NCBI GenBank assembly: GCA_003220495.1
Contig: QHSP01000044.1
Span: 1 to 54,197, forward strand
Length of the DNA stretch: 54,197 nt
Direction: 5' to 3'
From: Candidatus Rokuibacteriota bacterium
Lineage (GTDB): Bacteria; Methylomirabilota; Methylomirabilia; Rokubacteriales; CSP1-6
Made by a program: the position numbers and the translations under genes. Below, in pieces: positions 5,390-8,075 of the stretch (the first letter of the stretch is position 1; every line of letters begins with the position of its first letter). The notes under the pieces were generated by a model. It worked only from the letters and a program-made list of their open reading frames with translations, was not told where the DNA came from and made no database searches.

Positions 5390-5884
5390 CTACTCGCGGA
5401 ACTCTTGATCGAGGATCTCGCGGATGAAGCGGTCGATGGAGACGGGATAGAAGCGCACGTCCGGAGTCGTGATGACCCCGGTGTTGATGACCTCGCGCTG
5501 CGACAGTTCCTCGAGGACGCGCTCGAGATGGCCGTGGGCGTCCCGCTCCTGGCGCCGGATCCGGAGCTCCTCGCTCTCGAGCGAGACCCGCGAGGCATAG
5601 CGGAAGCTGAACACGCGCGCGATCAGGCGCCGATCCATCAGCTCGGTCTCGTTGAACATCTCGCCGTAGGTCGGGCCGCCGCCAGCGCCGATGACGAGCC
5701 GGGGCGACACCTTGATGCGGCCGCGAACCTCCACCGACCGGCCGGGCTGGTCGTGCTCTGGTCCCACCAGGATGTAGGGCAGCACGTGATAGCCCGTGAT
5801 GATCCCGGTGAGCGGCTTGCGGACCACCTGCGTCTCGTCGAAGACATGACGCAGGAACTCTAGATCTTGCCAGTCGTCGGCCAT
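5390..5884 (-). CDS. Conserved hypothetical protein, 164 aa
   Basis: This 164-residue soluble protein has no signal peptide or membrane segment and I cannot assign it to a named domain. It contains GYHVLPYILVG, GRIKVSPRLVIG, YGEMFNE, an Arg/Glu-rich helix (ESEELRIRRQE) and an acidic/basic tail RFIREILDQEF. The high content of conserved-looking charged and aromatic residues argues that it is a real protein. It is the first gene of the minus-strand glycosylation unit and lies 21 bp from a divergent zinc-ribbon gene, so both promoters overlap and both messages probably lack leaders. No function is proposed. Confidence 0.75.
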   Translation of the reverse strand: MADDWQDLEFLRHVFDETQVVRKPLTGIITGYHVLPYILVGPEHDQPGRSVEVRGRIKVSPRLVIGAGGGPTYGEMFNETELMDRRLIARVFSFRYASRVSLESEELRIRRQERDAHGHLERVLEELSQREVINTGVITTPDVRFYPVSIDRFIREILDQEFRE

Positions 5885-5896
5885 GCGGGGTAGTGT
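5867..5896 (+). promoter_or_regulatory. Candidate promoter of the small zinc-ribbon gene
   Basis: TTGCCA (5867-5872) and TAGTGT (5891-5896) are separated by 18 nt. The -10 box ends 9 nt before the ATG at 5906, with no ribosome site, implying a leaderless or near-leaderless transcript. The -35 box lies within the coding start of the divergent gene. Confidence 0.45.
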
Positions 5897-5905
5897 ACCA
5901 GCGGC

Positions 5906-6079
5906 ATGGAGCCGCGCCCGAGCCCGCCTCCGACCCTCGTTCGCGCCGACGTCACGCCGTCCGCCTGTGGGAGCCACTGGGTGCATCATTGCGAGCGCTG
6001 CGGCGAGCTGATGGAAGAGCGGCAGTGCAAGATCGTCTGCAAGAACTGTGGACTGTTCAGGGATTGTAGCGATCCCTGA
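5906..6079 (+). CDS. Small zinc-ribbon protein, 57 aa
   Basis: An ATG at 5906 opens 57 codons ending at TGA 6077-6079. The protein holds HCERCGE (C29, C32) and CKIVCKNCGLFRDC (C41, C45, C48, C54), a treble of Cys pairs typical of a zinc ribbon or knuckle, and ends in DCSDP. The N-terminal 20 residues are Pro-rich and probably disordered. Such mini zinc ribbons are usually of unknown function; a nucleic-acid or protein-binding role is only inference. It is divergent from the 164-aa hypothetical and is followed by an aminotransferase remnant. It is below usual gene-calling length but has a matching promoter and a plausible fold. Confidence 0.7.
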   Translation: MEPRPSPPPTLVRADVTPSACGSHWVHHCERCGELMEERQCKIVCKNCGLFRDCSDP

Positions 6080-6110
6080 TTCGCGATCGCTCGAGTCGTC
6101 ACCCACGCTC

Positions 6111-6291
6111 GTGACGTCCGCCTCCGAGCGCGCGTGGGCGGTCTTTCCGGTGGGCTCGTCCGGCGAGTACAACCTGCCCCGCGAGCTCACGATCGTGCTC
6201 GCCCGCGGGGAGGGCGCGACGGTCTGGGGACGCAGACATCCAGCGGTTTCTGGCGGTCGCCCGCGCGACGCTTCGCGACGACTGCCGCTGA
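6111..6291 (+). pseudogene. Internally deleted class III aminotransferase (GSA-aminomutase-like) remnant
   Basis: From GTG 6111 the frame reads ERAWAVFPVGSSGEYNLP and then LARGEGATVW, closely matching the start of glutamate-1-semialdehyde-aminomutase-like transaminases (family pattern: GG.SGEYNLP..., ARGEG..VWDVDG). At 6228/6229 the sense passes to the next frame, which reads DADIQRFLAVARATLRDDCR and stops at TGA 6289-6291; that is the usual C-terminal helix of the same family. Nearly the whole PLP-binding middle (about 370-400 residues) is missing. I infer one large out-of-frame deletion that left both ends of the gene. No function remains. Confidence 0.6.
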
Positions 6292-6303
6292 GCGGCGGTC
6301 GCG

Positions 6304-7131
6304 CTACGGCGCCTCGGGCGGGCGCGGCGTGGGGCCCGGCGCAGCGCCGCCGGGCGCCGGCGACGGATCCACGACGGCGATGCCGTCCATGTCGGGCTCG
6401 AGCTGGAGCGTGTCGGCGATCTTGGTGTAGCTCGAGAACATCTGCGTGACGCCGAGCACCTCCATCACCCCGCGCTCGCCGACGCCGAGACGCCGCATCT
6501 CGCCCAGGTGGAAGGCCGTCCCGAACGCGGAGCGGGTCGTGACCGAGACCGCGAACGCGAGCGCCTCTTTGTGGCGGCGCGTGAGCTGGTTGTCGGCGAA
6601 CACACGCCGGGCGGCGCCCCAGAGGTCGGCCAGGTAGCCCGGGTCGGCCGCCACGCGGCGAAACGCCACCGGCACGTCGGCGCGGTCGTAGAAGGCGCGG
6701 ATCTCGGCGAACACCGCCTGCGCCTCGGCGCTCGGGCTCGCCGGCTCGAGCGCCGCTAGCGGCGAGTCGGCGACGACGTTGAGCGCGTTCGTGACGCCCA
6801 CCAGCAGCGCCGCTTCGTACCAGAGCGCGTCGTCGGCCATGCCCTGCAGCTTCCCGGCTGCAGTGTGGGCGCGTACTCAATAGGCGCAGGCGTTGACGCC
6901 ACTCACGACGGCGGCGACCATCTCCTTCTCGGCCCGGCTCCATTCACCCGGTGTCATGGCACGCTTCATCGCGCGTCCGTGAAAGGCGCCGAACTCCGGG
7001 TCCCACGCCATCACCCGGCTCATCGCCGGCGGCTGGGCGAAGTCGTAGTTGAACCAGGCCTTCGCGACCTCGAAGAGCTTCTGGATTGGCGCGGGATACT
7101 CCGAGGCATCTCGTAGTCTGACCGTCGGCAT
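6304..7131 (-). CDS. AhpD/CMD-like selenoprotein with CxxU motif (internal TGA)
   Basis: Two open stretches in one frame (7131-6880 and 6876-6304) are separated only by TGA at 6879-6877. Read through as selenocysteine, the product is 275 residues. U85 then completes E70-x11-C82-x2-U85-x3-H89, exactly the spacing of the AhpD proton-relay and redox site (E-x11-CxxC-x3-H), with TGA replacing the second Cys codon. A hairpin follows the TGA at 6844-6863. The C-terminal half is a second AhpD-like repeat with E189-x11-S201-x2-G204-x3-H208, so its thiols are lost but Glu and His remain. The likely role is peroxide or thiol redox chemistry in the cytoplasm. It starts 4 bp after the AlkZ-related gene ends. 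The alternative, a broken pseudogene, is less likely given two more such genes in this window. Confidence 0.85.
6844..6863 (-). promoter_or_regulatory. Candidate bacterial SECIS hairpin for the AhpD-like gene
   Basis: On the minus strand, 13 nt after the TGA, a perfect 7-bp stem CTGCAGC/GCTGCAG encloses the loop CGGGAA. The loop guanines lie 22-24 nt after the TGA and at positions 2-4 of the loop, inside the range described for bSECIS elements (loop G about 16-37 nt after UGA). Confidence 0.75.
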
Positions 7132-7135
7132 CGGT

Positions 7136-8014
7136 TCAGCTCCTTTCGGCGCCGCGCGGGTCGCCCGCGGCCGCCGTGTGGATCAGCCAGCGCCCCGGCC
7201 AGCCGTCGATCGCGCAGTCGGCGCGGACGGTTCGTTTCTGCGCCAGGGTCTCCACCGCTCGGGCGACCTCGTCGGGGCGAAGGCCGAAGAGGCGCGCGAG
7301 CTGCCGCTCCGTCGTGAACACCGCGCCGCGCGTGTAGCGCTCGATCACGCCGGCGACGGCCGCCTCTCGCGACAGGCGGCGGCCCTCGGCGACCTCGTCC
7401 GGCAACCAGGCCTCGAGCAGATCCCAGCGGTAGGAAAAGGTCGGCTCGTAACGCTCCTCGCTCTTGACGAGCCAGAGGCCCTGCTGGAGCTCCGCCATCG
7501 CACGCTCGAACTCGCGCGTCTTCGAGGGCTCCAGCATAAAAGCGTTCGCGCGGAGCTCGCGCGTGTACTGCGGATGCTCGTCGAGCATCGCGTCCATGAT
7601 CCGCCGGGCCGTGTGCGAGAGTCGCCCCGCCTCGTACTCGACCTTGTAGTCGCGCGCCCGCTGGCGGCCCCGCACCAGGGCATAGAACATCGGGAAGAGA
7701 TCGAGCGAAACCAGGAGGGGCCGGCCCTTCAGGAGCTTACCGTAGTACACCGCCTTGCGGGCCGGCAGCGAATCCTTCAAACCCCAGGTGAGGCCGATGC
7801 CGGCGTCGTGGTGCGAGCGCCGGGGCCAGCGCGGATTCGCTTTGCCGGCGACCGCTTCCCAGAGACAGGCGACGCCCTCGGGGAACCGATAGAAGGTCGA
7901 GCAGAAGCCGACGTCCCGCACGAACGCGAGGGCGGCGCGCTCGCCCTGGACGCGGCGCTCCGCGAGGCGGCGGAACCGACGGTCGCGGAGCCGATGGAGC
8001 GAGTCGGCGGTCAA
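7136..8014 (-). CDS. AlkZ-related winged-helix protein (YcaQ/AlkZ-like)
   Basis: The best start is TTG 8014 (MTADSLHRLRDRRFRRL), preceded by GGAGG at a good distance, giving 292 residues; a GTG at 8053 would add 13 residues with no ribosome site. The protein shows GFCSTF, WPRRSHHDAGIGLTWGLKD, VYYGKLLKGRPLLVSLDLFP and a C-terminal winged-helix stretch (TTERQLARLFGLRPDEVARAVETL). These resemble proteins annotated AlkZ-related, distant from the interstrand-crosslink DNA glycosylase AlkZ. I cannot identify the catalytic QxQ/QxD motif of true AlkZ, so glycosylase activity is uncertain. It heads a two-gene unit with the selenoprotein, and is divergent from the small basic protein. Confidence 0.6.
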   Translation of the reverse strand: MTADSLHRLRDRRFRRLAERRVQGERAALAFVRDVGFCSTFYRFPEGVACLWEAVAGKANPRWPRRSHHDAGIGLTWGLKDSLPARKAVYYGKLLKGRPLLVSLDLFPMFYALVRGRQRARDYKVEYEAGRLSHTARRIMDAMLDEHPQYTRELRANAFMLEPSKTREFERAMAELQQGLWLVKSEERYEPTFSYRWDLLEAWLPDEVAEGRRLSREAAVAGVIERYTRGAVFTTERQLARLFGLRPDEVARAVETLAQKRTVRADCAIDGWPGRWLIHTAAAGDPRGAERS

Positions 8015-8045
8015 CAGTCCTCCTTGTTCTCGGGCAGGCCTCTCA

Positions 8046-8075
8046 TTGACCACATTTCTGTCGCTGTTGTAAAGT
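8046..8075 (+). promoter_or_regulatory. Sigma-70-type promoter for a leaderless gene
   Basis: TTGACC (8046-8051), 18 nt, TAAAGT (8070-8075), then 7 nt to ATG 8083. The -35 box matches the consensus at 5 of 6 positions. The AT-rich spacer stands out from its surroundings. No Shine-Dalgarno fits before the ATG, so the mRNA should start at or beside the AUG. Confidence 0.6.

Follow-up and report, generated by a model that had tools for sequence, protein, structure and literature searches.

The locus studied here raises the question of whether a TGA codon within an AhpD-like gene of an uncultured, soil-type bacterium of the Rokubacteria group ends the protein or is read as selenocysteine (Sec). 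The window, that is, the whole 54,197-nt stretch analyzed, contains this gene at 6304..7131 on the minus strand, with a Shine-Dalgarno-like AAAGGAG 5′ of the ATG at 7131. When TGA is translated as U, the frame 7131-6304 yields a tandem AhpD/CMD protein of 275 residues that terminates at a TAG (6306-6304). Translation bore out two claims of the initial annotation: the TGA at codon 85 (6877..6879, minus strand) is the only internal stop of the 275-codon frame, and it occupies the second position of the redox pair C82-x-x-U85 with the spacing E70-x11-C82-A-Y-[TGA85]-x3-H89. The same annotation had argued that a random nonsense mutation would have had to hit exactly the redox Cys codon while the downstream codons stayed open. 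The counts behind this argument are correct (190 codons follow TGA85), but the open frame alone is little proof because long shadow ORFs abound in the GC-rich window, one of them reaching 517 aa in another frame at 5390-6943 (minus strand).

An absence of Sec machinery had been named as a finding that would speak against Sec. The source genome (Rokubacteria/Methylomirabilota group; 5.98 Mb, 98.4% complete) encodes SelA (E = 7.8e-151), SelB (over cut-off, at 356.6 bits), a tRNA-Sec with the anticodon UCA (69.8 bits) and a SelD that scores 336.7 bits and likewise has a TGA in frame, so that all of selA, selB, selC and selD are present. Contig C152 holds SelA, SelB and tRNA-Sec within a span of 5 kb, and SelD is located on C1. 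This SelD (L019; G000:C1:77537-78481, plus strand) is predicted to be a selenoprotein too: its TGA stands in the context SCAG-TGA and is followed by a hairpin. Across the phylum Methylomirabilota, SelA scored over cut-off in 83 of 95 genomes. Thirty-five of these 95 were counted as carriers of the tandem gene, either with most of the gene present or with a copy that runs to the end of a contig, and 33 of them have SelA over cut-off, as do all five carriers outside the phylum. The other two carriers (G057 and G077) have neither SelA nor SelB over cut-off, a gap explicable by one missing contig, since the Sec genes are clustered and these genomes are only 78% and 81% complete. In G060 and G087, which are near-complete and without SelA or SelB over cut-off, the tandem gene is absent too.

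Codon 85 is TGA in all 42 complete or near-complete tandem homologues (a set that includes the window gene) and TGC or TGT in none, and Cys82 is present in every one of them. The set spans Rokubacteria, two Tectomicrobia MAGs (L110, L114), a Dehalococcoidia MAG (L093) and a MAG labelled 'bacterium' (L105); the named relatives of the window gene are mostly Candidatus Rokubacteria/Methylomirabilota MAGs. TGA is also found in the incomplete genes L112 (Nitrospinota MAG), L104 and L113, and the remnants L071, L072, L077 and L079, from which the redox segment is missing, show no Cys in its place. Comparing the window gene with ten homologues, NG86 dN/dS was below 1 on either side of the TGA in every pair (for L032, 0.053/0.531 5′ and 0.033/0.214 3′ of the TGA). 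In single-module homologues, the codon equivalent to TGA85 is TGC or TGT. The proposed search for homologues with Cys at this site thus succeeded among single-module relatives and failed for the tandem form; the contrary outcome, Cys in neither position, does not apply, given Cys82 in the tandem set and these Cys codons at the TGA site.

Neither a peptide-pattern scan of genome contigs, nor the phylum homologues, nor 400 Chloroflexota genomes yielded a full-length tandem protein with Cys at this site. The contig patterns ([HY]GRA[MS][KR]RAM and H[TS]AAGKLQG) reach only sequences keeping those peptides and are not biased to TGA because they exclude residue 85. Among the 400 Chloroflexota genomes, for each of which at most six candidates were scored, the tandem form occurred only in the known carrier, and the other matches were single-module.

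Some tandem copies stand out individually. Contig G092:C50 carries the tandem selenoprotein gene twice, as the diverged copies L068 and L058, ~5 kb apart. The copy L070/L113 (G072:C26) has its 5′ part out of frame with the TGA part, reflecting a frameshift or an assembly error, and L077 (G094:C59) lacks the redox segment (~residues 74-130) in frame and has its second module broken off, by decay or chimeric assembly. L093 (OX638353.1), labelled Dehalococcoidia, is 70% identical to the window protein and falls among Rokubacteria in the domain tree, by horizontal transfer or through a wrong label.

Downstream of the TGA, we predict a bacterial SECIS hairpin (CUGCAGC-CGGGAA-GCUGCAG; 6844..6863, minus strand) that begins 13 nt 3′ of the UGA. 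The published bSECIS model describes a loop 16-37 nt past the UGA, a stem of 4-16 bp, a loop of 3-9 nt with G in its first two positions and a folding energy of at most -7.5 kcal/mol (PMC13188914). The window hairpin lies within all these limits, with its loop 20 nt from the UGA, a stem of 7 bp, the 6-nt loop CGGGAA (G at position 2) and -12.4 kcal/mol. Against shuffled GC-rich sequence, its folding energy shows no excess stability (z 0.14), and we used silent-site conservation as evidence for the hairpin in place of that comparison. In the nearer clade (27 genes), silent-site entropy reaches its minimum over codons 89-96, where it averages 0.11 bits versus 0.84 for the gene as a whole. Thr90 is ACT in 27 of 27, and over all 42 genes Ala92 (GCC), Gly93 (GGG), Lys94 (AAG) and Leu95 (CTG) use a single codon each. 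Selection acting on the protein alone would not produce such conservation. We compared the pairing in 19 selected distinct sequences. None of them breaks any of the five inner pairs, one of which is A-U in some and G-U in others. Variation is found in the two outer pairs: both partners differ in three cells (twice from C-G to U-A, once from U-A to G-U), and the more distant clade has many cells that do not pair. Covariation is consequently scarce, the inner pairs being almost invariant.

What raises the TGA85 frame above chance is the TGA in 42 of 42 homologues, together with dN/dS well below 1 on both sides and the silent-site conservation in the downstream hairpin. The initial interpretation of the TGA as Sec is supported by these comparisons, by the Sec machinery and by Cys in single-module relatives. 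We conclude that the window gene almost certainly encodes a selenoprotein, with Sec as the predicted reading of UGA85; we infer Sec insertion at UGA85 itself from the comparative evidence.

This conclusion has to be weighed against readings without Sec. If the TGA were a true stop, the locus would be a pseudogene or a split gene, with a product cut short after 84 N-terminal residues and perhaps a second ORF, of 178 aa, starting at the ATG at 6840. Such a standard-code ORF does exist (6304-6840, minus strand), and high GC content holds frames open anyway, but Cys82 and His89 would end up apart, the silent-site conservation of codons 89-96 would go unexplained, and the shared TGA and low dN/dS on both sides speak for one continuous protein; we therefore consider a stop very improbable. 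Through suppression or a variant genetic code, UGA85 might instead be decoded as another residue such as Cys or Trp, which would suit the Cys found at this position in single-module relatives. TGA is not reassigned throughout, however, because the upstream gene (7136-8053) and several homologues terminate with it, and the genome encodes the full Sec machinery and the gene has a SECIS-type hairpin, which makes such decoding exceedingly improbable. As for a sequencing or assembly error that turned a Cys codon into TGA, the window TGA is known from assembled sequence alone, yet homologues in independently assembled MAGs of several phyla have the same TGA, so that a base-call error is implausible, this explanation is already refuted and its probability is negligible.

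The selenoprotein reading of the initial annotation was thus sound, but it had overlooked the SECIS hairpin, the tandem architecture and the Sec-only character of the tandem form. The window protein consists of two AhpD/CMD modules of ~125 aa each. The first, predicted to be catalytic (6757..7131, minus strand; boundary approximate), carries E70-x11-C82-A-Y-U85-x3-H89, and the second, degenerate one (6382..6750, minus strand; boundary approximate; PF02627 match at 6409-6627) carries S201-x2-G204-x3-H208. With TGA read as C, the motif E-x11-C-x2-C/U-x3-H is present in 42/42 homologues. Where module 1 has C-x2-U-x3-H, module 2 has S-x2-G-x3-H in 41 of the 42, the remaining one being gapped at Ser. 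In the domain tree, the first modules cluster together (100/100), as do the second modules (100/97). Because the two groups separate and their internal branching broadly matches, the tree fits one old joining of two modules, which would have been followed by largely vertical descent. Eight single-module relatives group weakly (81/38). Among these, Cys forms (L003 of the source genome, L075, L119-L121) are interspersed with Sec forms (L073, L074, L126; CxxU with TGA), and the Cys/Sec swap is therefore seen at module level, and at that level only, since the searches yielded no full-length tandem homologue with Cys.

Further AhpD-like frames of the source genome also contain an in-frame TGA. L006 (G000:C99:87224-87475, minus strand; GCPF-TGA, CxxU) is followed by a 7-bp hairpin (CGCAUCC-AGGG-GGAUGCG) that begins 11 nt 3′ of the TGA (-11.6 kcal/mol for the 41-mer). 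L076 (G000:C88:34108-34308, plus strand; SAY-TGA), a possible SxxU form, has a strong hairpin 3′ of its TGA (-18.2 kcal/mol for the 42-mer).

By profile and motif, the window protein is a member of the AhpD/CMD superfamily: it scores 64.5 bits against PF02627 (cut-off 23) and 50.3 bits, over the curated cut-off, against TIGR00778. An AF2 model of moderate quality (mean pLDDT 73, pTM 0.70; only two of five models above 60) places it in the same fold class, with its best match, 2q0t, aligned over 223 residues and nearly the whole length (Z 20.0). In the mechanism we propose, the hairpin 3′ of UGA85 would recruit SelB carrying Sec-tRNA(Sec), and the ribosome would read UGA85 as selenocysteine. 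By analogy with AhpD, the Cys82/Sec85 pair of module 1 would form a selenenylsulfide, with Glu70 and His89 as the proton relay, and the product would act as a thiol/selenol (hydro)peroxidase or a disulfide-type reductase. Module 2, whose redox pair is lost, was probably kept as a structural partner that would pair pseudo-symmetrically with module 1. Fold and motif make a thiol/selenol peroxidase-type reductase the likely function, and we regard peroxidase-type activity as reasonably probable.

Alternatively, a Sec protein with this tandem scaffold might serve another reductive reaction, comparable to that of the AhpD-fold debrominase Bmp8 (PDB 6ohi), which is among the structural matches of the model (Z 14.5). 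The gene neighbourhood leaves room for this: neither tblastn of the neighbours nor a six-frame ORF clustering, noisy from GC-rich shadow ORFs, revealed a conserved operon partner (AhpC, AhpE, dihydrolipoamide system) beside the gene. Set against it, every one of the 42 homologues retains the E-x11-C-x2-U-x3-H relay and nothing positive points to another substrate, and we hold a non-peroxidase role to be rather unlikely. The upstream neighbour, an AlkZ-related gene (PF24741; 7136..8053, minus strand), ends 4 nt before the ATG of the selenoprotein gene. In tblastn, it and the ORF at 5390-5914 were recovered only from close relatives, and only there does the AlkZ-related gene adjoin the selenoprotein gene; it is therefore probably not part of the selenoprotein's function, and we draw no operon function from these neighbours. 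A more speculative idea, which we think unlikely, is that the tandem subfamily has kept Sec since the joining of its modules, with no Cys form, that its reaction really needs selenium (e.g., reduction beyond ordinary peroxides), and that module 2 is a conserved non-redox partner.

Under the standard code, the window selenoprotein is split at the UGA. Read with Sec, it would give the AhpD/CMD superfamily a branch in which only Sec has been seen so far, from an uncultured phylum with large selenoproteomes; one Methylomirabilota MAG is cited in PMC13188914 as having 63 predicted selenoproteins. The Sec codon has been kept over deep divergence beside single-module relatives that swap Cys and Sec, which makes the question of why some enzymes retain selenium testable.

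Among characterized folds, Mycobacterium tuberculosis AhpD is a Cys enzyme in which a CxxC pair, located in the second half of the chain, works with a Glu and His relay. The window protein shares its helical AhpD fold (PDB 1gu9, 1knc; Z 17.7) but only 13% of its residues. The best fold match, the CMD-family protein 2q0t of Burkholderia xenovorans, is 14% identical; to our knowledge, it has no established function and no report of Sec.

Catalogues of CxxU selenoproteins have included AhpD-like and CMD-like members since 2005 (PMC1088965, PMC2398784, PMC13188914), and the initial annotation was right to call the AhpD-like ones already described (PMC1088965). Like those assigned to COG2128/TIGR01926 in the Sargasso Sea and GOS surveys (PMC1088965, PMC2398784), the window protein combines an AhpD core, CxxU and a bSECIS 3′ of the UGA; unlike them, it comprises 275 aa and has two evident AhpD modules, of which the first bears the active pair, and no Cys form was found. 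Its TIGR01926 score is under the curated cut-off (54.1 vs 81.8 bits), and 11 of the 11 members scanned match this model at E ≤ 0.001. With the CMD domain-containing CxxU selenoprotein (PF02627; PMC1088965, listed in PMC13188914), compared by its listing alone and possibly itself tandem, it shares a PF02627 score over cut-off and CxxU. The (seleno)protein family NF041238 (AhpD_rel_CFYUT) is likewise AhpD-related with CxxU, but the window protein is under its curated cut-off (33 vs 175 bits) and carries the active motif in the N-terminal half, whereas that of NF041238 lies in the C-terminal half, as judged from the match to positions 216-249 of the 357-position model. In the literature searched, we found no paper describing the tandem CxxU form; Deng et al. 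2026 (groundwater MAGs) and Haft & Tolstoy 2025, both cited in PMC13188914, may list it. In conclusion, the window protein represents a distinct, apparently uncatalogued and so far Sec-only tandem branch of the known AhpD/CMD CxxU selenoproteins.
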